A DNA stretch of 20,720 nt from a virus, in the IMG/VR virus record IMGVR_UViG_3300020472_000212, positions 1 through 20,720 of that record; one strand, 5' to 3'. The position numbers were made by a program, and so were the translations under genes. The notes below the pieces were generated by a model. That model ran no database searches, was not told where the DNA came from, and saw only the letters and a program-made list of their open reading frames with translations. Of the stretch, positions 556 through 16,200 are shown in pieces (within the stretch, counting starts at the first letter, position 1; every line of letters begins with the position of its first letter).

Positions 556-1416
556 ATGCCATTTGACATTATACCTAACGAACTACCTGCATTACCTGAT
601 GATTTAAACTTTGAACCTATAAGAGAACCTGCCTACAGGAATGGTCAAAGAGTAGAAGGTAAATGGTGGGTTATTAACCCATTAACTGATAAGGTTATTG
701 GTGATGGAAAAAGAAACCATAAACCTACAAACTTCAATTCTATGTGGGAAAACTTTAGAAAAGGAATTAACTTATCTGATTTAGATTTGTCAGATACAAC
801 AGTAAAATTCACTAGAGTTGGTGGTGGATCAGCTATGAGAGCAGACATAGTGTTCAAGAAATATGATTACAAACGTATTTTAGGTGAACCTATGCAATTA
901 AAAATGAGAGTTTTAGATTCTCACGATCAAACCTTTAAACGTACTGCTGATGCTATGCTACTTAGACTAGCCTGTTTAAATGGTATGCCAAGCATATCTG
1001 AAACAATAGGATTTGCACAAAAGCATACATTATCCCAAAATCCTGAGAAACTTGCAGAAATATCTTCAAAATTTCCTGAAAGAATTGAGAAGGAAGTGCA
1101 TATAATGAAGAAAATGAGCAACATTCCTATCACAATAGAGAAAGTGAAGGATTTTTTATCAAAAACAGTTGCAAGTTATAAAACCATATCAGGAATGAAG
1201 GTTAATCAAAGGGCATTAGATGATGCTATGAGGACATATTTTTCCTATAAGATGAATGATAATGTTTATAGGCTTTATAATACTCTGACGCATCTCTCAA
1301 GTCACGTAGAAGGCAAAAGAGGTAATACTGACATTAATAGAAAGCAACTACGTATAGAAACAGATGTAGAAAATATTGTACGAAGTAAAGACTTTGCAGA
1401 ATTGATGGTTGCATAA
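556..1416 (+). CDS. DUF932-like phage protein
   Basis: A 286-residue soluble protein with AAAGGAGAG at 543-550 before its ATG. The central part (LGEPMQLKMRVLDSHDQTFKR followed by LRLACLNGMPSI, residues about 115-146) and the C-terminal block with LYNTLTHLSSHVEGKRG (residues about 240-256) resemble the DUF932 family of phage and plasmid proteins. Those typically carry an 'R-L-x-C-x-N-G' segment and a C-terminal 'YN..T...SH' segment. The molecular role of the family is not established; members are often found near phage replication or recombination genes. The gene's stop overlaps the integrase start by one base, implying translational coupling. The family call rests on recognised sequence pattern, not on a search. 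Confidence 0.55.
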   Translation: MPFDIIPNELPALPDDLNFEPIREPAYRNGQRVEGKWWVINPLTDKVIGDGKRNHKPTNFNSMWENFRKGINLSDLDLSDTTVKFTRVGGGSAMRADIVFKKYDYKRILGEPMQLKMRVLDSHDQTFKRTADAMLLRLACLNGMPSISETIGFAQKHTLSQNPEKLAEISSKFPERIEKEVHIMKKMSNIPITIEKVKDFLSKTVASYKTISGMKVNQRALDDAMRTYFSYKMNDNVYRLYNTLTHLSSHVEGKRGNTDINRKQLRIETDVENIVRSKDFAELMVA

Positions 1417-2504
1417 TGTCTACTTTACCTAAATATGTTGTAGTACGTAATAAATCTAATGGTGGAAAGTCTTATAGGTACAATCCACCAAAAAGATTTA
1501 TTGAGGAAGGTGTGGTGTATAGAAAAGAGTTAGGAACAGGTTTGCGTACAGCCTGTTCCATAGCTACTAAAATGAATAATGAGATTGAAGAATATTTAAA
1601 ACAAACATCACAGGTTGTAATGCATAATCCTACCGTTCAAGGATTGTATCAAGAATATTTATTATCTAATGATTTCAATATGTTAAGGGAAAAAACACAG
1701 AAGGATTATATATATTTTTTTAAGATAATGTTAGATACAAACTTTATAGGAAGGAAGGATTATCGCAAAATTAATACTCAGATGTGTAAGATTGCGTATG
1801 AGGAATGGGTTAAAAGAGGAATACAGTTTGCTAATCACATTCTTTCTGTATCTTCTAGGCTATATAAATATGCTATTGAAATGGGATACACAGAGTTAAA
1901 TCCATTTAAGAATGTAACTCGTAAGACCGTAATAACTGAAAGAATAATATGGACTAAAGAAGAGGTTAAGAAGTTTCTTGACGTAGCCTATGCTGATTAT
2001 AACTACAGAAGTATAGGATTAATTGCTCATATGGCATACGAATTTGGTCAGAGGATAGGAGATATGCGATTATTGGAATGGGATAGTATTAAATTTGAAT
2101 TAAAACAGCTTCATCTTAAACAGTCAAAAAAGAGGAAGGAAGTTTTCTTACCTATAGAAAATAATTTATTTGCTATGTTGCAAAAACAACACACAGACTT
2201 TGGTTTTCAGAAATATGTAGCACCAAGAATAAAACCTATAAGAGATAATTTTGTTCCTTACAGCCTATATGCAGTCTCTATTTTAGCAAATGAGGTAGGA
2301 AGGAAGGCAGGTTTAAGGGAAGAGTTACAGTTGATGCATTTAAGAGCAACAGCCATAACTGAAATGAATGAAGCAGGGGTCGGATTAGGACAAATAATGT
2401 CGGTTTCAGGACATTCTAACCCTCAAAGTGTCAAGCCGTATTTAAAACATACTTTTAAAAGTGCAAATTATGCCTTGACAAAAAGAAATAATTATGATAG
2501 TTAA
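1416..2504 (+). CDS. int: tyrosine recombinase / phage integrase
   Basis: A 362-residue protein of normal phage integrase length. The N-terminal half (residues about 70-165) fits a SAM-like core-binding domain. The catalytic domain shows Arg213 in FGQRIGDMRLLEW, a beta-hairpin lysine around Lys236-Lys241, box II with Arg310 in MHLRATAIT, Gly332-His333 in SGH, and nucleophile Tyr342 in KPYLKHT. The usual HxxR histidine is Met307, with a histidine one position later (His308). It should catalyse site-specific strand exchange between phage and host att sites, so a temperate or formerly temperate lifestyle is inferred. Its start overlaps the stop of the previous gene (taATG), with no strong ribosome binding site. 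The 33 bases downstream do not resemble the 3' end of a tRNA, so no attachment site can be named here. Confidence 0.93.
   Translation: MSTLPKYVVVRNKSNGGKSYRYNPPKRFIEEGVVYRKELGTGLRTACSIATKMNNEIEEYLKQTSQVVMHNPTVQGLYQEYLLSNDFNMLREKTQKDYIYFFKIMLDTNFIGRKDYRKINTQMCKIAYEEWVKRGIQFANHILSVSSRLYKYAIEMGYTELNPFKNVTRKTVITERIIWTKEEVKKFLDVAYADYNYRSIGLIAHMAYEFGQRIGDMRLLEWDSIKFELKQLHLKQSKKRKEVFLPIENNLFAMLQKQHTDFGFQKYVAPRIKPIRDNFVPYSLYAVSILANEVGRKAGLREELQLMHLRATAITEMNEAGVGLGQIMSVSGHSNPQSVKPYLKHTFKSANYALTKRNNYDS
2475..2503 (+). promoter_or_regulatory. sigma-70-type promoter with extended -10, upstream of primase
   Basis: A consensus TTGACA (2475-2480) is followed by 17 bases, with TG at 2495-2496, and a -10 hexamer TAGTTA (2498-2503). 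The -10 alone is weak, but the TG-A-TA extended element and perfect -35 compensate. It lies over the end of the integrase gene and 34 bases before the primase ATG at 2538. Four other sites in the left arm have the same layout. The predicted start is near 2510. Confidence 0.6.
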
Positions 2505-2537
2505 ACATTTAACTGTAACAGAGAGAGTGACATATAT

Positions 2538-3284
2538 ATGAATATAAATACATTTATTAATGATATAGATATGCATTTAAATGAAACAAAGAGAATGGAT
2601 TGTCCTGTATGTAATGGAAAGAATACATTTACTGTAAGTTTTATAAATGGAGTACGTGTATGGAATTGTTATAAGGCTTCCTGTAGTACAAAAGGAAATG
2701 TTTCAGTAAGATTAAATGTAGATGATATAAAACAATCTTTTAAAGGGAACAGTAGGAAGGAAGATTTATTTGTATTACCTGAATATATTGTTCCAAATGG
2801 AGTACATTATCACGATGTCAAGGAAAATCGTATTGTTTTTCTAGTAAAGGATAGTGAAAAGGGAGTAGTTGTAGATGCTGTAGGTAGATCAGCAGGAAAA
2901 AGATTACCTAAATGGAAAAGGTATGGTAAAAGTAAACTGCCTTATGTTGCTTGGGGTGAATCGTATTCAGAGCAAGTTAAGGAAGGAAAAACAACTTGTG
3001 TTTTAGTAGAAGATTGTTTTAGTGCATACTACGTTACAAAACTTAGAATGACAGGTGTTGCACTTTTAGGAACGAGTTTACTTGAAGAGCATAAAAGATT
3101 TTTGTGTCATAATTTTGATAGGGCGATTGTTGCCTTAGACCCTGATGCTCTAACTAAAAATCTACAAATAGCTAAAGAATTAAGAGGTTGGCTTACAGAC
3201 GTAAAAGTTTTAAGGTTGACAGATGATTTAAAGTATGGTAAAGAAACAGACATTCACAATTTAAAGGAGTTGGTATGGAATTAG
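2538..3284 (+). CDS. DNA primase, zinc-finger plus Toprim
   Basis: A 248-residue protein equivalent to the N-terminal half of T7 gp4. A zinc-binding module with Cys22, Cys25, Cys44 and Cys49 should recognise the template initiation site. The Toprim fold follows, with acidic residues Glu158 in LVEDCFSA and Asp201/Asp203 in VALDPDA, which bind the metals for primer synthesis. The T7 protein carries a helicase on the same chain. Here the chain ends after the Toprim domain, and the helicase is a separate gene overlapping by 10 bases. The pair probably works as a complex at the fork, making RNA primers on the lagging strand. The start follows a GAGAG ribosome binding site and a promoter ending at 2503. 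Confidence 0.9.
   Translation: MNINTFINDIDMHLNETKRMDCPVCNGKNTFTVSFINGVRVWNCYKASCSTKGNVSVRLNVDDIKQSFKGNSRKEDLFVLPEYIVPNGVHYHDVKENRIVFLVKDSEKGVVVDAVGRSAGKRLPKWKRYGKSKLPYVAWGESYSEQVKEGKTTCVLVEDCFSAYYVTKLRMTGVALLGTSLLEEHKRFLCHNFDRAIVALDPDALTKNLQIAKELRGWLTDVKVLRLTDDLKYGKETDIHNLKELVWN
3216..3244 (+). promoter_or_regulatory. sigma-70-type promoter with extended -10, upstream of helicase
   Basis: TTGACA (3216-3221), a 17-base spacer with TG at 3236-3237, and a -10 of TAAAGA (3239-3244). It is inside the end of the primase gene, 30 bases before the helicase ATG at 3275. It has the same spacing and TG-R-TA core as the sites at 2475, 7197 and 9979. Confidence 0.5.
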
Positions 3285-4498
3285 CATTAGTAAGAAGTTT
3301 AATGAATAAAGAGTTTTATGACGATCATAGAGGAGCAAAGTGTCCTAACAGATTGTTTAGTAAAGATGTAAGGAAGATTAAAGAAACATTAGACGTAACA
3401 ATGGAAAAGTATCAGAGGTCAGTAACACCTGATGAAGTAGAAGCTTTGTTTATGTCTAGTAATCCTTCAATGACTACGGCACAGAAGACTGCCTATTCAG
3501 CTTTGTTCAGTCAGGTTAAAAAAGAACAGAAGATGGGAGTAGATGTTGCACAAGATGTTTTATCTAAATTGTTTCAGCAGATTATAGGAGAGGACATTGC
3601 CAATTTAGGATTTGATTATGTAAATGGAACTAAATCAAATCTAGAACCTTTGCGTAATATATTAGAGCAGTATGCAGATGATTTTACACCTAACCTTAAC
3701 ATTGAATGGGATGATATTGACATTAAAACTCTTTTAGATAAAAATGATTTAGAAGCTAGATGGTCATTTAACATTCCTTCATTGACTAGAAAGATAGAAG
3801 GAGTTAATGCAGGACATTTAATTGAGGTTGGTGCAAGACCTAACACAGGTAAAACATCTTTCCATGCAAGCCTAGTAGCAGGAGAGAATGGATTTGCTAG
3901 ACAAGGTGCTAAGTGTATTATTTTGTGTAATGAAGAAAGTCCTCACAGAGTTGGTGCTAGATATTTAACTGCATCAACAGGAATGACCTTGCATGAAATA
4001 AAAGAAGACCCTGCCAAAGCACACATTCTTTATGATCCTGTTAGAGACAATATAAAAATTAAGGATAGTTCCATGAGAGATATGAATTGGGTTGAATCGG
4101 TTGTAAAGTCTACTAAACCTGATATTGTTATATTAGATATGGGAGATAAATTTGCAACCACGCAAGGCTATGCAAGAGCAGATGAAGCATTAAAAGCCTG
4201 TGCGATTCATGCTAGGCAGATAGCAAAACAGTATGACTGTGCTATGTTTTATATGTCGCAGTTGAGTGCTGAAGCTGAAGGTAAGATTATCCTCAATCAA
4301 AGTATGATGGAAGGTAGTCGTACAGGTAAGGCTGCAGAAGCAGATTTAATGATTCTTATAGCTAAGAATCCACCTGTTGAAGGGCAGGATGAGGATGATA
4401 TGCAAAGACACTTAAACGTAGTAAAAAATAAGTTGTCAGGTTGGCATGGTAATGTTCATTGCGAACTTGACTACAAAACAGCTAGATATACTGTATGA
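3275..4498 (+). CDS. replicative DNA helicase (DnaB/gp4-type RecA fold)
   Basis: A 407-residue ring-helicase subunit. The N-terminal 160 residues are helical and probably form the linker or primase-binding region. The RecA-like motor follows: Walker A GARPNTGKT (residues 186-194), a catalytic acidic pair in CNEES (Glu220-Glu221), Walker B IVILDMGD with Asp288, and a sensor-type YMSQLSAEAEG (Gln329). It should unwind the fork using NTP hydrolysis and load the neighbouring primase. The ATG at 3275 is set by AAAGGAG eight bases upstream and lies 10 bases inside the primase gene. The 3' end overlaps the endonuclease VII gene by four bases (ATGA). Confidence 0.93.
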   Translation: MELALVRSLMNKEFYDDHRGAKCPNRLFSKDVRKIKETLDVTMEKYQRSVTPDEVEALFMSSNPSMTTAQKTAYSALFSQVKKEQKMGVDVAQDVLSKLFQQIIGEDIANLGFDYVNGTKSNLEPLRNILEQYADDFTPNLNIEWDDIDIKTLLDKNDLEARWSFNIPSLTRKIEGVNAGHLIEVGARPNTGKTSFHASLVAGENGFARQGAKCIILCNEESPHRVGARYLTASTGMTLHEIKEDPAKAHILYDPVRDNIKIKDSSMRDMNWVESVVKSTKPDIVILDMGDKFATTQGYARADEALKACAIHARQIAKQYDCAMFYMSQLSAEAEGKIILNQSMMEGSRTGKAAEADLMILIAKNPPVEGQDEDDMQRHLNVVKNKLSGWHGNVHCELDYKTARYTV

Positions 4499-4917
4499 CA
4501 GAACAAGGAGAATTATTTACCATAGAAGAGGATCAGATTCTTGATGGTGTTATTTGTATAAAATGTGATGTGCGACAACCAATATCTGAATTTTCTGTAA
4601 TGAAAGCAGGAGAAATAAAAAGAACCTGTCGTTCCTGTAGAAAAGGACACAAGGAAGTATTAACTAGGTTAAGAAAAGAAAATGCTTATCCTGATGAAAA
4701 CTATAAATGTCCAATCTGCAAAAAAACTATTGAGGAACTAGGAAAGTATGGACAAATTCGCTTAAAGACTTGGGTGTTAGATCATTGTCATGATACAAAT
4801 ACCTTCAGAGGTTGGCTGTGTCATAAATGCAACACAGGACTAGGTGGTTTTAATGATAGCTTGACAATTACACAAAATGCTGTTATCTATTTAGTTAAAC
4901 ATAAGGAGAATATATAA
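4495..4917 (+). CDS. endonuclease VII-type recombination nuclease
   Basis: A 140-residue HNH/His-Me-finger nuclease. The catalytic block is WVLDHCHDTNTFRGWLCHKC (residues 93-112), with Asp96, His97, His99 and Asn113. A structural zinc site is formed by Cys72/Cys75 and Cys109/Cys112. T4 endonuclease VII (gp49) resolves branched DNA such as Holliday junctions before packaging, and the same role is expected here. An additional N-terminal CxxC...CxxC pair (Cys21/Cys24, Cys45/Cys48) suggests a second zinc ribbon, common in marine phage members. It starts within the helicase stop codon (ATGA), so translation is coupled. The left arm also encodes a T7-type endonuclease I, so this phage has two junction nucleases. 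Confidence 0.92.
   Translation: MTEQGELFTIEEDQILDGVICIKCDVRQPISEFSVMKAGEIKRTCRSCRKGHKEVLTRLRKENAYPDENYKCPICKKTIEELGKYGQIRLKTWVLDHCHDTNTFRGWLCHKCNTGLGGFNDSLTITQNAVIYLVKHKENI
4861..4889 (+). promoter_or_regulatory. sigma-70-type promoter with extended -10, upstream of an 87-aa gene
   Basis: TTGACA (4861-4866), a 17-base spacer ending TG-T (TG at 4881-4882), and a -10 of TATCTA (4884-4889). It lies over the end of the endonuclease VII gene, 27 bases before the ATG at 4917. It also serves the polymerase gene, which follows the 87-aa gene by two bases. Confidence 0.55.
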
Positions 4918-5180
4918 TGAAAATTAAAGAAGTCAAATATATTTTAGCGACAGACTATGATGAAGAAGGTTTTGATGCTGATGGAGCAGGAGATTATTTT
5001 TATACTGCTACAAACTATAGAGAACACGAAACTAAAGAAGAAATTTTAACTTCCTTACAAAAAAACATATGCTATGATGATTATGGTAGGTATAAACATA
5101 AAAAGAAAAAACCTAATTTTAGTAGTATAGAAGAATATTGTAAAGAGTTTGGATTTCGTTTATATAAAAGAGAGGTATAA
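4917..5180 (+). CDS. small acidic/basic protein of unknown function (87 aa)
   Basis: The ATG at 4917 shares one base with the endonuclease VII stop and has AAGGAGA at 4903-4909. The protein opens with a strand-like MKIKEVKYILATDY and continues through an acidic glycine-rich stretch (DEEGFDADGAGDYFYTAT). It ends with a lysine-rich segment (KHKKKKPNF) and an aromatic tail. No family is recognised. Its place directly before the DNA polymerase, two bases apart, suggests a role at the replication fork or simply cotranslation with the polymerase. Confidence 0.7.
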   Translation: MKIKEVKYILATDYDEEGFDADGAGDYFYTATNYREHETKEEILTSLQKNICYDDYGRYKHKKKKPNFSSIEEYCKEFGFRLYKREV

Positions 5181-5182
5181 AT

Positions 5183-7219
5183 ATGCAACTAACATTAGAC
5201 GTAGAAAATACAACAATAAAAAAAGATGGAAAGATGCATCTAGACCCATTTGAACCTGAAAATAAACTAATTATGGTAGGGTGTTTAACAGATGATGGAG
5301 AAGAATATCTATTTAGAATGGATGATGACGCTGTTTCAGGGGTTTTAAATTTAAGTAATCATTCTGCAATACAAAAACTTTTAGATGAAGCAACATTATT
5401 AATTTGTCATAATGCTGTGTATGATCTGATATGGCTTTGGGAATGTGGGTTTAAATATAATAAACCTGTTTTTGATACTATGTTAGGTGATTATGTTTTG
5501 CAAAAGGGAGTTAAGAAACCATCAAGTTTGGAGTTATGTGCAGAAAGATATAATCTAAATACAAAAAAACAAGACACACTTAAACAATATTTTAAAAAAG
5601 GAATAGGGGTAGATGGTGTACCACGTGATGAATTGTGTGAATATCTATCTTCTGATTTAAAAGCAACACAGGAGTTATATAATGAGATATGTAAAAGACT
5701 TCAGGATAAAGAAAATAGTGGACTTTGGAATACAGTTAATCTTACTAATGACGTTTCCCTCACTTTGGCTCGTATATATCAGCGTGGGTTTTCTGTTAAC
5801 TTAAATATTCTAGAAGAAGTTAGAAAAGATTTTACAAAAGAAAAATCTGAAATTGAAGAATACTTAAAAGAACAAGTAAGGTATTTTATGGGTGATACAC
5901 CTATTAATTTAAATAGTCCTGAACAATTATCGTGGTTAATATACAGTAGAAAACCTAAAAATAAACAGGATTGGGCTACACATATGCCAACAGATGTATA
6001 TACCGAAGGAGTTAAGGAATATTCAGAAGTTATTTTTAAAACGAAAGCACACCAATGTAATTCATGTAAAGGGTATGGTAAAATAAGAAAGATAAAAAAG
6101 GATGGTAAACCGTTTGCAAAAGAATCTCGTTGTCTTAATTGTGATGCTATGGGTTATATATTTGTACCTACAAGCAGAGTAGCAGGTATGCGTTTTAGAG
6201 CACCTAATGAAAAATGGCTTACAGCAAATGGTTGGAGTACAAGCAAGATACATTTAAGTTTTCTTGCAGGTATAGCTAAAACAAGGGGAATGAAAGAAGA
6301 AGAAATGTTTTTAAATAAGGTTATGCGTTTGTCAGCATTGGATACTTACCTGTCTTCTTTTGTTGATGGTATTTTACATAATGTCAAAAGTGATAATAAA
6401 CTACATGTAAAGTTATTACAGCATAGAACAGCGACAGGTAGGTTTAGTGGAGCAGACCCTAATATGCAGAATATGCCTAGAGGTGGTACATTCCCTATTA
6501 AGAAAGTATTTGTATCTCGTTGGGATAACGGAAAGATACTTGAAGCAGACTTTGCACAGTTAGAGTTTAGAACTGCTGCATATTTGTCACAGGATAAAAC
6601 AGCAATGAAGGAGATTGAGGATGGTTTTGACGTACATAACTATACTGCCAAAGTTATTACTGAGGGTGGTCAAAAAATTAGTAGGCAAGAAGCAAAAGCA
6701 CATACCTTTGCACCGTTATATGGAGCAACAGGATTTGGAAGAAGTAGAGCAGAAGCAGAATACTATAAAAACTTCACAAAAAAGTACAAAGGAATCGCAT
6801 TTTGGCACTCCAGATTGGCTAAAGAAGCTTTAACTACAGGTAAAATAACTACACCGTCAGGTAGACAGTTTTCATTTCCTAATGTTGAAAGAAGATTTAA
6901 TGGTAGTGTAACATACTTTACACAGATTAAAAATTATCCTGTTCAATCTTTTGCTACTGCTGATATTGTTCCCCTTATTTTAATGGACATAGACAGGAGA
7001 TTGAATGGATATAAATCTTGTGTAGTAAATACTGTGCATGATTCTATTGTAATTGATGTTCATCCTGATGAAATAGAGGTAGTAAAAAGTGTAATAGAGT
7101 ACACTAATAAGGATATGTCAAGCACTATTAACAAACATTTTAGTATAAATTTAAATGTTCCATTATTATTAGAAGCAAAAATAGGTAATAATTGGCTTGA
7201 CACGAAAGAAATAGTATGA
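5183..7219 (+). CDS. polA: family A DNA polymerase with 3'-5' exonuclease and a DnaJ-like zinc insert
   Basis: A 678-residue replicative polymerase. Exonuclease residues are Asp6 and Glu8 (DVE), Asn77 and Asp81 (CHNAVYD), and the Tyr154-Asp158 pair (YLSSD). Polymerase motif A has Asp456 (EADFAQLEFR). Motif B runs from Arg501 to Tyr513 (RQEAKAHTFAPLYG). Motif C has His619-Asp620 (VHDS). The residue matching E. coli Phe762 is Phe509. Between the exonuclease and palm, an insert at residues about 275-335 holds CNSCKGYG (Cys292/Cys295) and CLNCDAMGY (Cys317/Cys320), a pattern like DnaJ zinc repeats. From memory, the polymerase of SAR116 phage HMO-2011 was described with a DnaJ-like central domain, and this supports the group assignment. 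The ATG follows AGAGG at 5171-5175. Confidence 0.95.
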   Translation: MQLTLDVENTTIKKDGKMHLDPFEPENKLIMVGCLTDDGEEYLFRMDDDAVSGVLNLSNHSAIQKLLDEATLLICHNAVYDLIWLWECGFKYNKPVFDTMLGDYVLQKGVKKPSSLELCAERYNLNTKKQDTLKQYFKKGIGVDGVPRDELCEYLSSDLKATQELYNEICKRLQDKENSGLWNTVNLTNDVSLTLARIYQRGFSVNLNILEEVRKDFTKEKSEIEEYLKEQVRYFMGDTPINLNSPEQLSWLIYSRKPKNKQDWATHMPTDVYTEGVKEYSEVIFKTKAHQCNSCKGYGKIRKIKKDGKPFAKESRCLNCDAMGYIFVPTSRVAGMRFRAPNEKWLTANGWSTSKIHLSFLAGIAKTRGMKEEEMFLNKVMRLSALDTYLSSFVDGILHNVKSDNKLHVKLLQHRTATGRFSGADPNMQNMPRGGTFPIKKVFVSRWDNGKILEADFAQLEFRTAAYLSQDKTAMKEIEDGFDVHNYTAKVITEGGQKISRQEAKAHTFAPLYGATGFGRSRAEAEYYKNFTKKYKGIAFWHSRLAKEALTTGKITTPSGRQFSFPNVERRFNGSVTYFTQIKNYPVQSFATADIVPLILMDIDRRLNGYKSCVVNTVHDSIVIDVHPDEIEVVKSVIEYTNKDMSSTINKHFSINLNVPLLLEAKIGNNWLDTKEIV

Positions 7220-7225
7220 TATAAA
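7197..7225 (+). promoter_or_regulatory. sigma-70-type promoter with extended -10, upstream of the putative SSB gene
   Basis: TTGACA (7197-7202), a 17-base spacer with TG at 7217-7218, and a -10 of TATAAA (7220-7225). This is the best match of the five. It overlaps the last codons of the polymerase and ends 29 bases before the ATG at 7255. Much of the spacer (AAAGAAATA) is shared with the site at 2475. The two sites are read in different frames by their overlying genes, so protein conservation does not explain the similarity. Confidence 0.68.
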
Positions 7226-7254
7226 GGGGTATGTTTAATGAAAGGAGTACAAAT

Positions 7255-8166
7255 ATGAACACAAATGAACTTACAACAATAAATAAAGACAATTATGATG
7301 CAATGGCAAAGGTCATGGGAATGAATATGGATATTGCCAATAAATCTAAATCATCTACATTAGATCGTCTTAAAATTTCCCACACACCGATAATGGGCAT
7401 GGGAGAGGTTAATGGTAAAAAAACAAGACTAGAAGTGGTACAAGGTGGTACATATAGATTGGAAGATGTTGAAAAGGAAACATCTTACTACTCTTCTAAA
7501 GTATCTCTTAGACCTTTTATTCAACGATTTATGTATAAAAAATGGGTTAAACCTGAAGGAGAACATGGTTACTATTTAAAGACTATTATGGCTGATAATC
7601 TGAATATAGATTTGAAAGACAATAGAGGTGGTTTTAACTGTGGCAAACCTGCAGGATTTATTAAAGACTACAATGCCTTACCTGAATCTACAAAAACTGC
7701 TATTAAAGGTATTAAAAGAGTACGTGCTATTTTAGGTACAGTAACTTTTCAGGACATTGTAGATGTAGAAGGAAATTCTGTAGAAAATAAGGCTGTTAAA
7801 AGTAGACCTGTTATATGGGAAATTGATAATAGAGATGCTTTTAAAATTATGGGTGAGCCGTTTACTAAGTGTGCTAACCTAAAGCATTTGCCTTTACAGC
7901 ATAATATTGATTTATCTACCGTAGAAAGAAAACTGCCAAACGGTAATTCTTTTTACTTACCTAGCGTTAACTTTTCTCTGAAGGAAATTGATATAACTGA
8001 TGGGGATCAGGACTTGTTTAAAGATTTTTTATCTTGGATTGAAAATTACAATAGTTACATTATTAGTGAATGGACTAAAAGTAATAATGATGGTGAGGAT
8101 AATTTATCTGAAAGTGAGGAAGAACTTGTTGATGATTTCATTGATGTAGAAAAAGAAAATGCTTAA
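7255..8166 (+). CDS. probable single-stranded DNA-binding protein with acidic tail
   Basis: A 303-residue soluble protein placed directly after the polymerase. I do not recognise the core by motif, but it contains a basic and aromatic stretch (RFMYKKWVKPEGEHGYYLKT) and a glycine-rich GGFNCGKPAGF segment that could bind nucleic acid. The last 25-30 residues are strongly acidic (SESEEELVDDFIDVEKENA). An acidic tail of this kind is the hallmark of T7 gp2.5-like and bacterial SSB proteins, where it recruits polymerase and helicase. Function is inferred from position and tail only. The start is the ATG at 7255, with AAAGGAG at 7241-7247. An upstream ATG at 7231 has its AAAGGGG only one base away and lies six bases after the predicted -10 hexamer, so it is not favoured. 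Confidence 0.6.
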   Translation: MNTNELTTINKDNYDAMAKVMGMNMDIANKSKSSTLDRLKISHTPIMGMGEVNGKKTRLEVVQGGTYRLEDVEKETSYYSSKVSLRPFIQRFMYKKWVKPEGEHGYYLKTIMADNLNIDLKDNRGGFNCGKPAGFIKDYNALPESTKTAIKGIKRVRAILGTVTFQDIVDVEGNSVENKAVKSRPVIWEIDNRDAFKIMGEPFTKCANLKHLPLQHNIDLSTVERKLPNGNSFYLPSVNFSLKEIDITDGDQDLFKDFLSWIENYNSYIISEWTKSNNDGEDNLSESEEELVDDFIDVEKENA

Positions 8167-9037
8167 CTCACCTATAGAAATAAAGGTACATAAATATCTG
8201 TCTGATGTGAGCAAGGGTACTGCTAGTATGAGTGATGAAACTATTGAAATGGTAACATCACACATACGAGAAGCTCTAAAGAAACAGTTTGCAAAAAAAG
8301 AAGAAACTGAACCATTTAGATTACGTATGTCAAATATTGGCAGACCCTATTGTCAACTATGGTTTCAAAAGAATAAACCTGAAGAAAAAATATCTCCACC
8401 TAATACTTTTGTAATGAACATGATGTTGGGAGATATTGTTGAAGCTGTATTTAAAGGTATTTTAACAGAATCCAATGTTAAATTTAAAGACAGTGATTCT
8501 GTTGTACTTAATCTAGGAGAAGATAAAATCAAAGGAACATATGATTTAATTATTGATGATGCCTTAGACGATATTAAATCTGCTTCTGATTGGTCTTATA
8601 AATATAAATTTAATTCTTACGATACATTGGCTGACGGAGATATGTTTGGTTATGTTGGTCAGTTAGCAGGATACACTAAAGCTGCAGGGAAAAAGAAATG
8701 TGGTTGGTGGGTCATAAATAAAAACAATGCTCATTTTAAATATATTCCTGCCACAGGACTTGACATTGAAAAAGAAGTTATTAAATTAAAAGGAGTCGTT
8801 AAAAAACTTAAAGAAAATAAGTTTGAACGATGCTTTGACTTAGAAAACGAAACCTTTAGAGGAAAAGAAACAGGGAATAAAAGATTGTGTAAAGAATGTT
8901 CCTTTTGTGAATTTCGTTATTCTTGTTGGAAAGGGTTGGAAGAACTTCCTTCTATACCGTCACAGGCAAAAGAACCAAAGCTTGTGGCATATGTTGATTT
9001 AAAAAAGGAGAACAAACATGAAAGAGTTGTCAATTGA
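8159..9037 (+). CDS. Cas4/RecB-like PD-(D/E)XK exonuclease with Fe-S cysteines
   Basis: A 292-residue nuclease. The core motifs are Glu95 in GDIVEAVFKG, Asp129 in GTYDLIID, the (D/E)XK pair Asp138/Lys140 in DDIKSAS, and Gln168/Tyr172 in VGQLAGYT, the usual QxxxY of RecB-family nucleases. One upstream cysteine (Cys65 in RPYCQLWF) and a C-terminal cluster CKECSFCEFRYSC (Cys247, Cys250, Cys256, plus Cys244) match the 4Fe-4S arrangement of Cas4 and AddB proteins. The likely role is degradation or end-processing of DNA during phage replication and recombination, comparable to the T7 gp6 step. It starts eight bases inside the putative SSB gene, without a strong ribosome binding site, so translation is probably coupled. 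Confidence 0.85.
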   Translation: MLNSPIEIKVHKYLSDVSKGTASMSDETIEMVTSHIREALKKQFAKKEETEPFRLRMSNIGRPYCQLWFQKNKPEEKISPPNTFVMNMMLGDIVEAVFKGILTESNVKFKDSDSVVLNLGEDKIKGTYDLIIDDALDDIKSASDWSYKYKFNSYDTLADGDMFGYVGQLAGYTKAAGKKKCGWWVINKNNAHFKYIPATGLDIEKEVIKLKGVVKKLKENKFERCFDLENETFRGKETGNKRLCKECSFCEFRYSCWKGLEELPSIPSQAKEPKLVAYVDLKKENKHERVVN

Positions 9038-9245
9038 AGAAATGGCTGATATGATTAGGGAAAAAGAAAAAGAACTATTAGAGCTTAAAAAAGATTATAG
9101 AGAACGTAGAACTGAAGGTTTACGGCAAGCGATGGAGCAAAGACGAGAAGCTGATAAGTTAGTACGTGAAGAAATGAAAAGTTTAGGAGTTACCGAAAAG
9201 ATTAATTTTAGTGATGATACTTTTTATAGACGATTTTATTTCTAA
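9018..9245 (+). CDS. small coiled-coil protein of unknown function (75 aa)
   Basis: The ATG at 9018 has a good AAAAGGAG upstream and lies 20 bases inside the exonuclease gene. Residues about 5-55 are almost all charged with leucine, isoleucine or methionine at heptad-like spacing (IEEMADMIREKEKELLELKK), so a helical coiled coil is expected. No family is recognised. Its stop shares one base with the endonuclease I start. Tight packing between two nucleases suggests an accessory role, but nothing in the sequence proves it. Confidence 0.72.
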   Translation: MKELSIEEMADMIREKEKELLELKKDYRERRTEGLRQAMEQRREADKLVREEMKSLGVTEKINFSDDTFYRRFYF

Positions 9246-9706
9246 TGTCTCCCTATAGTGCATATAAAGTTGCACGTAAATATGGGTATAGGAGTGGTTT
9301 AGAAGATCAACTTGCTGAGTTTTTACGTAAACATAAAATAAATTTCGTTTACGAAAAAGTAAAGATAGAATGGGAAGACCTTGCTTATCGCACCTATACT
9401 CCTGACTTTATTTTAGATAATGGTATTATAATAGAAACTAAGGGAAGGTTTACTGTTGCCGATAGAAGAAAACATTTGTGTGTAAAGAAACAACATCCTA
9501 AATTAGATATACGATTTGTCTTTACAAATAGTAAAAGTAAATTACAAAAGGGTGCTAAAACAAGTTATGCTAGTTGGTGTGAGAAGTATGGATTTAAATA
9601 TTGTGACCGTATTGTACCTGAAAAATGGCTTAAAGAAAAAAAGAAAAGCATAAAGTATAATTCTTTTATTCCTTTTAGTGGAAAAAAGATAGAAAGGAAA
9701 AAGTAA
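9245..9706 (+). CDS. T7-type endonuclease I (Holliday junction resolvase)
   Basis: A 153-residue protein that aligns along its length with T7 gp3 as I remember it. The catalytic residues fall at nearly the same numbers: Glu20 (SGLEDQL), Asp54 (TYTPDF), Glu64 and Lys66 (IETKG), corresponding to T7 Glu20, Asp55, Glu65 and Lys67. The KKHLCVKKQHPKLDIRFVF and TSYASWCEKYGFKY blocks are also typical. The enzyme is a domain-swapped dimer that cleaves branched DNA and, in T7, helps break down host DNA and resolve concatemers. The tail is very lysine-rich. The start overlaps the previous stop by one base. Confidence 0.95.
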   Translation: MSPYSAYKVARKYGYRSGLEDQLAEFLRKHKINFVYEKVKIEWEDLAYRTYTPDFILDNGIIIETKGRFTVADRRKHLCVKKQHPKLDIRFVFTNSKSKLQKGAKTSYASWCEKYGFKYCDRIVPEKWLKEKKKSIKYNSFIPFSGKKIERKK

Positions 9707-10041
9707 TGGCTATTAATTCTGACGTATTTAATACTGAAGATTATGTAATACAAATCACACCTCACATATTAAGAAAAGATAATAGGTGGGATGGAGAAGT
9801 TACTGTTAATATTATATCTAATAAAGATAATGGTTTACATGTAGATGATGATGTGGCTCTAAACCACCTATGCAGATGTATGGCAAGTTCTTTACCTCTA
9901 ATGGAGATAGACCCTGCCTTTATGAGGGCTGTAGAAGAGTTTGCTTCTACTTATAATCCTACTCCTAAAGAAAAGGGGTTGACAGTTGTACAAAAAGATG
10001 GTAATGTAATTAAACTTGATTTTAAACTAAAGAAAGGATAA
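9706..10041 (+). CDS. protein of unknown function (111 aa)
   Basis: The ATG at 9706 overlaps the endonuclease I stop by one base and is preceded by AAAGGAA. The predicted product is a mixed alpha/beta protein: beta-rich N-terminus (VIQITPHIL and GEVTVNIIS), a helix around HVDDDVALNHLCRCMASSL, a second helix FMRAVEEFAS, and a strand-rich end (LTVVQKDGNVIKLDFKLKKG). No catalytic motif is evident and no family is recognised. Its 3' end carries the promoter for the next gene. Confidence 0.75.
   Translation: MAINSDVFNTEDYVIQITPHILRKDNRWDGEVTVNIISNKDNGLHVDDDVALNHLCRCMASSLPLMEIDPAFMRAVEEFASTYNPTPKEKGLTVVQKDGNVIKLDFKLKKG
9979..10007 (+). promoter_or_regulatory. sigma-70-type promoter with extended -10, upstream of the DUF3310 gene
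   Basis: TTGACA (9979-9984), a 17-base spacer with TG at 9999-10000, and a -10 of TAATGT (10002-10007). It is inside the preceding gene and 37 bases before the ATG at 10045. It would feed the nucleotide-metabolism block (DUF3310, ribonucleotide reductase, MazG). Confidence 0.5.
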
Positions 10042-13240: not shown

Positions 13241-16200
13241 TTATCTTTGTCTATTGTATAACGATCTTCCTATTTTAGTAGCTTCAGCATAAGAAGGAGC
13301 ACCCTCTTCTCCTATAGTTCTAGGAATGTATCCAATATCTGTTCCATATTGAGTGATAAGTGCTTTTTTCTCTCTGTCTACAAAGTATTCTAAAGCAAGA
13401 GTCTTAGCTAATCTAGGTAATCGCATCCATTTTACTTTATCAAATATATCAATTTCATCTTTTGGTTTATGTACTTTATACATATTTTCTGCTCTATCTT
13501 TAGCTACTATTCTAGCATCAGCTAATAACCCCATTAAATGTGTTTCTTTTTGTGCATCTGTTTTTTCTTTGTAGGCAGATGTTTTTATTACATCTGCTAA
13601 ACGTGTTTCTATATATTTTCCTAGTTCTCTTTTTACTAATGAGTCTACTCTTCTATCACCTGAAGGGTATAAAACTTCCCAACTCTCAAAACCAAACTTT
13701 AAAAGTTCTCTTTCTATAGGACTAGCAGCTTCTTTTGTTTTAAACCCAAAAAAGGAAAGTATTGGTCCTTCTGTTAATATTGTTCCACTTTTTACTGGAG
13801 ATTTAAATTCAGGCAATGACTCTTTACTAAAATCTCTACTTATACTATTTAATATAGGTATATTAGGAAACAGTCTTTCAAAATTAGGTATATTCTTTTT
13901 TGCCTGATTAAAAAAAGCTTCTTTACCTCTATTTATAGTTCCTGAACTAAATAACTGTTTACTGTCTCTAATCTTAGATGCTTCATCATCCCACATCGCA
14001 GTTATTTGATTTAAACCACCCAAATATAAATTGTTTGTATAACCACCTGTTAACTCTCCTAACCATGTTCCTACTGCTTCAGCTGCTTTTTCTTGGGTTA
14101 TTTGATCTAAATATAGATCATCTCCTTCAGAAAGTCCACCTAATATTCCTGATGACGAAATAGAATTAAATAAACCTTCTAAAACATGATTTGACACACC
14201 TACTCTAAAACTAGACCCAGTAAAGCCTTCTAGCAAAGTTCTTTTTTCTATTTTTGAAGCTTTACCATTAGCTAGTTTGTACATTAAATCTCCTGCTAAC
14301 ATATAGGGTGCGACAGGAAACATAGGTCGCATATCCATTGTTCTATTAGAAGACAGTTTTACATTATACCAATTAGTATCTTGATTTCTTTTCCTATATT
14401 CATAGGATGCCCATAACATACCACCACCAACTATACTTTTTGATACACTTTCATTAAACTCTTGTAATTCTCTAGCTGTTAAATCTTTAGATTGTGTAAG
14501 AATTTTTCCTAACACATTTGACCTTTTCATAGCAAAGTAGCCAATATTTAAAGGTGAATACTTTAATTGAAAAGCTATGGCATTTGTCATAAATCTAGCA
14601 AACGGAAATACAGCAGTACCTACAAATGGTGTTTGTTCTATTGCTCTTACAAAATAGTGTGCTAGTGGGCTATCTTTTATTTTTGGAGAGTATGCAAATG
14701 TAGCTTTTAAGGCATCGTCAACTCCTCGTTGTAATATATCTAAAGGAACAGAAGTATCATCCATTAAGCTCGTACTCTTATGCTCACCCAAAAATGACTT
14801 TTGTTTTGTGCCTTTAATGTTTAAAGTCTGTTTTGTCCTTCGCATTGCTTTATCAACAGAAGCCATAAAAAAAGCTCTCCTAAAAAAACTATCCTGTAAC
14901 AGGTTTAAAACATTTGCTTGTTTACTTATCCACCACATTTGATCTGCATCACCTGCTTCTTGTAGTGTTCTAAATAACTGCTTTAATAATTTAGGATCAT
15001 TAGCTAATAATAATTTTGCAGCATCTCCTGATAAACCCTGTTCACTTAAATATGCTATAAGACCAAAACTATCACGAGTTGCATCAACAAGACCTGTTCT
15101 AAAAGCTGTCCAGCTTCCTGAACCATTTACTAGTGCTTTTATAGATTTACCACCATAATGTAAGGCAGCTTCCATCATATCTGCTCCTGTTTGTATCCCT
15201 ACTACAGATGCTCCTGTATAAGCATTTCTAACAGTAGTAGATACTTTTGAAACCATTAAAGCTCGTCTGTTTTTATCGGCTGCATGAAATGCCCTCTTAA
15301 ACCACCATTGCCCTTCTACGGATTCTCCTTGCGACTTATATAATTTTTTGGCAGCTTCCGTAAATTCAGGATCAATTCTTTTAATTTTGTTTACTACTTT
15401 TGCAACTTGACTATAGAGGTTTAATGTTTGACCTGCCTTAGTAGCAGATGCCCTAGACATTGAAGCAAATTGATCTAAAGTTAAATTATGCTTTATTAAA
15501 ACATCTTTAATTACTTTTTCATCATTAAAAAATTCTTCAGGGTCTTTTCTATTCATCTCCATAAAAAATTTAGATATATACGTGGATATTTTTTCAGGTA
15601 CTTCTTTAGTTTTACCTGTTTTGGGGTTGGTAACTATTTCCATTTCTCTTAAAAAAACATCCTTTTCTCCAGAAGCTGCTCTAAATTCTTGTTTTTTCAT
15701 TAAGTCTTGAACAGCATCAAACATTTGTTTTGCTAAAGATATTTTTGTTATTGGTTCTACACTTGAAGATTCAGGTGCAGCGTCTTTTAACTCTTTCATG
15801 CCCTTTTTAATTAACTCTTTTTCTGTTGGTGTAGCTGTTCCGTTAGCCTGTTTACCTAATGCATCAACTAAATCAGCAAATTCTGAGCCTGTTAGCTTAC
15901 TTATATCATTTCCTGATGCACCATTCATTACATCAAAATGTGCAATATCTTCTATTTCATTTTTATTTCTAAGTTTTACATAATCAACATCTAGATATTT
16001 TCCTGCAATACCACCCAATGCTCCACCAAAAGCAGAACCTATTGCTCCTGATATAGCCACTTGTCCATAGGAAACTTTATCTTGTATTTCACCAGCTACT
16101 TTGGCTTTTTGTACAATTAAATCTTGTGCCGCTGATTCAGTACCTGCTGTGAGACCACCTCCTAAAGCTCCAGCAGCTACTTTATTTTTAGGTATAAAAG

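Follow-up and report, generated by a model that had tools for sequence, protein, structure and literature searches.

A 20,720-base stretch of viral DNA (the linear, partial IMG/VR record IMGVR_UViG_3300020472_000212; hereafter the window, meaning the whole stretch analyzed) carries at several gene junctions an element that combines a −35 hexamer, TTGACA, with a −10 hexamer 17 bp away (16-18 bp across the family), often joined by the TG of an extended −10. We interpret these sites as promoters, situated at the gene junctions of an early replication operon, that host RNA polymerase reads with its housekeeping sigma factor (RpoD, sigma-70 type), and assign this reading a probability of about 0.87. 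It builds on features that were observed directly, namely where the sites lie, their strand bias, the range of spacers, constraint at the nucleotide level, their recurrence in relatives, and the lack of matches to the RNA polymerase and sigma factor profiles that were searched.

Sites in the window and their recurrence in relatives

Five exact matches to TTGACA-N14-TG-N-TA are present at positions 2475, 3216, 4861, 7197 and 9979, as the initial annotation had described, all on the plus strand with none on the minus strand. Each has the complete −35 hexamer (6/6) and a spacer of 17, and the −10 hexamers are those originally listed (TAGTTA, TAAAGA, TATCTA, TATAAA and TAATGT, in order). The gaps between the end of the −10 hexamer and the next start codon are 34, 30, 27, 29 and 37 nt (starts at 2538, 3275, 4917, 7255 and 10045), which agrees with the annotated range of 27-37 nt provided that the gene following the DNA polymerase starts at 7255, an ATG matching its homologues, and not at 7231 as set by the caller of open reading frames (ORFs). 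The motif also exceeds chance as proposed: when synonymous codons were shuffled 2000 times within the left-arm genes, it occurred 0.16 times on average and at most 2 times, against the five observed. TTGACA by itself is not enriched in the window (21 occurrences versus 16.4 expected); the left arm holds nine copies and not eight, the one at 563 having been overlooked, and further copies lie in the right arm at 14191 and 17165. The description of the sites as buried in gene ends applies fully to 3216, 4861 and 9979 and nearly to 2475, but not to the −10 of 7197, which falls just outside the gene; there the −35 lies within the DNA polymerase gene (polA), whose TGA stop codon provides the TG. A standard promoter scan demanding T at −7 misses all five sites.

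Recurrence was assessed in 80 viral contigs retrieved by the DNA polymerase protein alone, blind to the motif; these relatives are not independent, and raw counts do not control for kinship, which within-gene column comparisons do in part. These contigs hold 157 exact copies of the motif on the gene strand versus 0 on the other, and variants with other spacers are distributed likewise (sense versus antisense, 15 versus 1 for spacer 16, 42 versus 0 for spacer 18 and 10 versus 0 for spacer 19). Approximately 141 of the 157 exact sites fall at three junctions, namely the polymerase end, the integrase/primase junction and the endonuclease VII end; the initial annotation had named equal frequency inside genes as the outcome that would refute a promoter role, and the relatives do not show it. 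Positional orthologues exist for three of the five window sites (2475, 4861 and 7197). The integrase/primase junction contributes 39 sites, including those of the window and of HMO-2011, all with spacer 17, while at the endonuclease VII end there are 24 orthologous sites in which every −10 is TATATA; sites with spacer 18 occur at a DUF3310-like junction (junction names such as DUF3310 derive from the annotation of homologues). When viral contigs were scanned for TTGACA-N14-TGNTATAAC, 46 of the 82 sites among the matches listed correspond to the polymerase junction. The −10 hexamers had been called poor, which applies mainly to the window and less to the relatives, where TATAAC, TATAAG or TATATA occupies the three main junctions and the first five −10 bases at polA, integrase and coat gene sites are TATAA or differ from it by one change.

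The two remaining window sites behave differently from these. In two relatives (L008 and L013) the site corresponding to 9979 keeps its −35 and −10 without the TG, and at the same junction in other relatives the site is displaced by about 9-10 bp and has spacer 18. The match at 3216, at the primase/helicase junction, is found in the window only, and relatives have the conserved peptide DDLKY there without the motif.

Two further kinds of site were seen in relatives. At the ends of ribonucleotide reductase genes in approximately ten of them (e.g., L059:8234), an additional TTGACA-N14-TG-N-TA with a weak −10 (TAGAAA or TAGAAT) lies at the stop codon; it is absent from the window. In L088:2066 (HTVC033P) and L100:3761, TTGACA-N17-TATAAC with TG is followed immediately by a terminator-like hairpin and a T run, an arrangement expected to yield a transcript of roughly 40 nt.

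Nucleotide-level constraint and the core element

Conserved C-terminal peptides might simply happen to spell the motif, and the sites do lie within such peptides (NNWLDTK, LTDDLKYG); as a general account of the family, this coding coincidence is nonetheless very improbable, given the synonymous codons at polA and endonuclease VII, which are fixed far beyond usage. In the codon alignment of polA from relatives, isolates and the window (n = 89), the Leu codon of the site is CTT in 88 of 89 sequences, versus 18% usage, and forms the most constrained of 36 Leu columns (entropy 0.09); the Asp codon is GAC in 87 of 89, versus 33% usage, and is likewise the most constrained of 17 Asp columns (entropy 0.16), the mean column entropy being 1.07. 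The Leu codon at endonuclease VII is TTG in 34 of 35 sequences (20% usage), and that of the integrase is TTG in 38 of 48 (17% usage; rank 2 of 12 Leu columns), a weaker test than the other two. All 80 polymerases of the relatives end with CTT GAC A...TGA, followed by TATAAC or TAAAAC; behind the polA stop, as in the leader of the coat gene, TATAAC is invariant although non-coding. In L163 and L151 the polymerase gene ends in TAA or TAG and the next bases, TGG, supply the TG, which is therefore kept for its own sake in these two; the stop codon as sole cause of the TG at the polA end was rejected on this basis. Judged by codon choice, the polA, endonuclease VII and integrase sites are kept at the nucleotide level, and coding coincidence is, on the sequence evidence, already refuted for polA and the coat gene. 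It remains the best account of 3216, where codon entropy is ordinary: this match is probably coincidental, because it occurs in the window only, in a position where relatives encode DDLKY without it. The five sites are thus not equal promoters as first proposed, since 3216 has no orthologue and its bases are explained by the conserved peptide LTDDLKYG.

The initial annotation took the extended −10 to be the selected feature, which the relatives do not support. TG stands one base upstream of the −10 at the five window sites and at most polA, integrase and endonuclease VII junctions, but at the polA ends of CRP-603, CRP-2 and CRP-207 it is lost, the spacer is 16, and TTGACA and TATAAC are both retained. 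Leaders of the coat genes do not conserve it either, and the extended −10 was consequently rejected as a universal element. With both hexamers kept, the spacer is 17 in the window and 16, 17 or 18 in relatives. A site count blind to both the TG and the −7 base, made on the window together with 12 isolate records (13 sequences in all), returned 52 sense versus 4 antisense sites across both arms, including one late-strand site upstream of the major coat gene.

This last site was followed in coat genes retrieved by protein only, of which 73 had leaders long enough to examine: TTGACA-N16-TATAAC is present in 73 of 73 (one with spacer 17). Among 32 representatives both hexamers are 100% conserved, whereas conservation is 0.53 in the upstream flank, 0.69 within the spacer and 0.44 in the downstream flank. 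When TTGACA-N16-TATAACTAT served as a scan pattern, 70 of 81 sites lay immediately ahead of a coat homologue, versus 0 of 80 for the version with T (both among the matches listed). On the opposite, late strand, the major coat gene would be driven by a promoter of this class that has spacer 16 and lacks a conserved TG. The view of a phage-wide promoter within a dense operon holds insofar as the sites are phage-wide, sense-strand, junction-specific and kept across the family, but the class extends beyond the left-arm operon, and restriction of the motif to the early arm was rejected in view of the coat leaders. In the coat genes examined (L466-L544), a leader of about 200-250 nt separates the promoter from the start codon, and an A-rich tract lies just before the −35. 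Two other late-strand sites, TTGACA-N17-TATAAT with TGG and T at −7, at L086:31754(−) and, in HMO-2011, at L095:4397(−), precede gp42 and the beginning of the leftward module. Sinorhizobium phage phiM6, which grows in the laboratory strain S. meliloti 1021, has TTGACA-N17-TATAAT with TG at position 322, some 280 nt ahead of its first annotated gene.

Candidate reader of the sites and the −7 base

Host RNA polymerase with sigma-70 is the best and most economical reader of these sites, because the −35 is consensus, the spacer is 16-18, the TG is optional, and neither a T7-type RNA polymerase nor a sigma factor was matched in nine isolates; the original preference for a host over a phage polymerase is thereby supported. 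The T7-type polymerase profile (PF00940) matched none of the nine isolates but did match T7, the positive control, and the sigma region-2 domain (PF04542) was matched neither in these isolates nor in the window record or three long contigs. From sequence alone we infer initiation by host RNA polymerase at the sites, its timing during infection and any need for the host activator CarD. The elements occupy the last codons of the upstream gene or the bases just past its stop, and because the hexamers sit there, the new transcript would under this model start approximately 20-30 nt before the start codon of the next gene. The likely effect would be re-initiation of transcription inside the dense operon, which would make the polymerase, nuclease and nucleotide genes independent of a single distant promoter. 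The same sites could instead bind a phage-encoded regulator or phage RNA polymerase, in keeping with an invariant C at −7 and a conserved TAT after it that exceed the sigma-70 consensus; we consider this highly unlikely, as the spacer varies over 16-18 with both hexamers kept, the TG is optional, the hexamers are those of sigma-70 itself, and the two protein searches above were negative.

The sigma-70 consensus has T at −7, a base required in E. coli. At two non-coding junctions of the relatives the −7 base is invariably C (80 of 80 polymerase ends and 73 of 73 coat leaders), while it is G at most integrase/primase junctions, A at endonuclease VII and T at the DUF3310-like junction (that of 9979) and in some isolate sites. 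The tally over isolates is C 21, T 16, A 12 and G 3, as raw counts that include shared ancestry. In the window the bases are A, A, A, A and T, and the window itself is therefore without the C. Among Alphaproteobacteria, over 60% of the promoters analyzed lack the T at −7, CarD has been proposed to compensate, and the base is roughly evenly spread (Myers et al. 2021, PMC8407463); because of this even spread, a fixed C goes beyond the host pattern.

The sigma-70 promoters might accordingly work only with CarD, tying the phage to this activator, which would be a special case of recognition by host sigma-70 polymerase and not an exclusive alternative. The invariant C at the polA and coat junctions, the non-T base at −7 in four of five window sites and the alphaproteobacterial data all point that way; however, a consensus −35 and an extended −10 may suffice on their own, and some promoters of the family carry T at −7, so that we hold dependence on CarD to be possible without favoring it. 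With similar reserve, we tentatively propose that HMO-2011-type phages may use their own sigma-70 variant, TTGACA-N16/17-TATAAC, in which active selection would maintain the C at −7 at key genes, early as well as late, and so bind phage transcription to a CarD-set state of the alphaproteobacterial polymerase (or to a phage-modified polymerase). A phage-encoded CarD was not matched in the set searched for the sigma domain (nine isolates, three long contigs and the window record). As for TATAAC as a common host promoter type, 58 sampled alphaproteobacterial genomes contained 18 matches to TTGACA-N16/17-TATAAC versus 27 to the reversed pattern, and 30 versus 20 for the T form. A similar TTGACA-N16-TATAAC in two alphaproteobacterial genomes (G013 and G036) was followed, and the two stretches resemble, by eye, a conserved coding region; no RNA family was found near them, and TATAAC as a common host type was rejected.

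Several observations weigh against recognition by host sigma-70 polymerase. The T at −7 that sigma-70 normally needs is absent from three of the four supported window sites, and the −10 hexamers of the window are weaker than those of relatives (TATAAA being the best). The exact TATAAC form is not a common host type, because it does not rise above its reversed-pattern control in the 58 genomes sampled. Site 9979 is not strictly positional in most relatives, 3216 is unsupported by them, and in the divergent isolates CRP-3 and CRP-235 the blind count, by its criterion, detected none. Finally, the protein searches used the PF00940 and PF04542 profiles only, by which a very divergent phage RNA polymerase would be missed.

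Gene context and comparison with known systems

Polymerase sequence and gene order mark the window as part of an HMO-2011-type podophage genome. The left-arm products comprise an integrase, a primase, a DnaB-like helicase, endonuclease VII, a family A DNA polymerase, a Cas4-type exonuclease, an endonuclease and ribonucleotide reductase; the integrase-primase-helicase-polA order agrees with the HMO-2011-type gene order, and the polymerase is 60-63% identical to those of Puniceispirillum phage HMO-2011 and Roseobacter phages CRP-345 and CRP-1. Homologues of the gene at 7255 start after the promoter and have a Shine-Dalgarno sequence (Table 1). The hosts of isolates in this group are Alphaproteobacteria (SAR116, Roseobacter, SAR11); the sole cellular match was an all-phage contig filed in a metagenome-assembled genome of Rhodobiaceae. 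This 22,549-base contig of an HMO-2011-type phage (L219/L043) is filed in the public assembly MED766 and also, with identical length, in IMG/VR. A short inverted repeat, GTTAAACATTTAAC, lies at 2500-2513 of the window, right at the −10 and start region, and is a possible operator; inverted repeats of the form GCAT..ATGC or GCAC..GTGC are found at the integrase/primase junctions of many relatives.

Table 1. Genes and predicted promoter elements of the left arm of the window.
Feature	Position	Strand	Details
Tyrosine integrase gene	1416..2504	+	PHROG integrase, E 1e-35; contains site 2475
Promoter (predicted), integrase end, before primase	2475..2503	+	−35 TTGACA 2475-2480; TG 2495-2496; −10 TAGTTA 2498-2503; −7 = A
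DNA primase gene	2538..3284	+	PHROG DNA primase, E 5e-15; downstream of promoter 2475
Motif match, primase end, before helicase; probably coincidental	3216..3244	+	Exact site
DnaB-like replicative helicase gene	3275..4498	+	PHROG, E 2e-45
Endonuclease VII-like gene	4495..4917	+	PHROG endonuclease VII, E 3e-22; contains site 4861
Promoter (predicted), endonuclease VII-like gene end, before ORF 4917	4861..4889	+	−35 4861-4866; TG 4881-4882; −10 TATCTA 4884-4889; −7 = A
Family A DNA polymerase gene (polA)	5183..7219	+	PHROG DNA polymerase, E 3e-91; contains −35 at 7197
Promoter (predicted), DNA polymerase end	7197..7225	+	−35 7197-7202; TG 7217-7218 inside stop TGA 7217-7219; −10 TATAAA 7220-7225; −7 = A (C in relatives)
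Gene downstream of polA-end promoter	7255..8166	+	ORF; start set by homology, first ORF ATG = 7231; no match in PHROG search
Small gene containing site 9979	9706..10041	+	ORF; no match in PHROG search
Promoter (predicted), end of ORF 9706-10041, before ORF 10045	9979..10007	+	−35 9979-9984; TG 9999-10000; −10 TAATGT 10002-10007; −7 = T

The HMO-2011-type group has been reported to be dominant and widespread in the ocean (PMC9038755). A term search of two papers on HMO-2011-type phages found no mention of promoters. The conserved elements provide ready-made tests of how this group takes over host transcription, and a natural set of deeply conserved promoters with C at −7 lets one ask how the alphaproteobacterial polymerase works without the T.

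T7-type promoters are read by a single-subunit phage polymerase and follow one rigid consensus. The phages studied here resemble that system in having several predicted promoters within one operon and differ from it in that no such polymerase was found in nine isolates (PF00940). With bacterial sigma-70 (RpoD) extended −10 promoters their sites share TTGACA, a spacer of 16-18, often TG-N before a TATAAT-like −10, and then a Shine-Dalgarno sequence and start codon; unlike these, they mostly lack T at −7, are embedded in gene ends and, at two junctions of relatives, have an invariant C. Among phages, the pelagiphage Polarivirus skadi likewise has no RNA polymerase of its own and has predicted sigma-70-like promoters near its replication genes (PMC10504331); this is a one-genome prediction, and the passages on it describe neither family-wide conservation nor a −7 pattern. 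The alphaproteobacterial promoters with A, C or G at −7 (PMC8407463) share with the phage sites the missing T, and the phage group's isolates infect Alphaproteobacteria; in contrast to the roughly even −7 composition of the host promoters, the phage sites have C fixed at two junctions and a −35 of full consensus.

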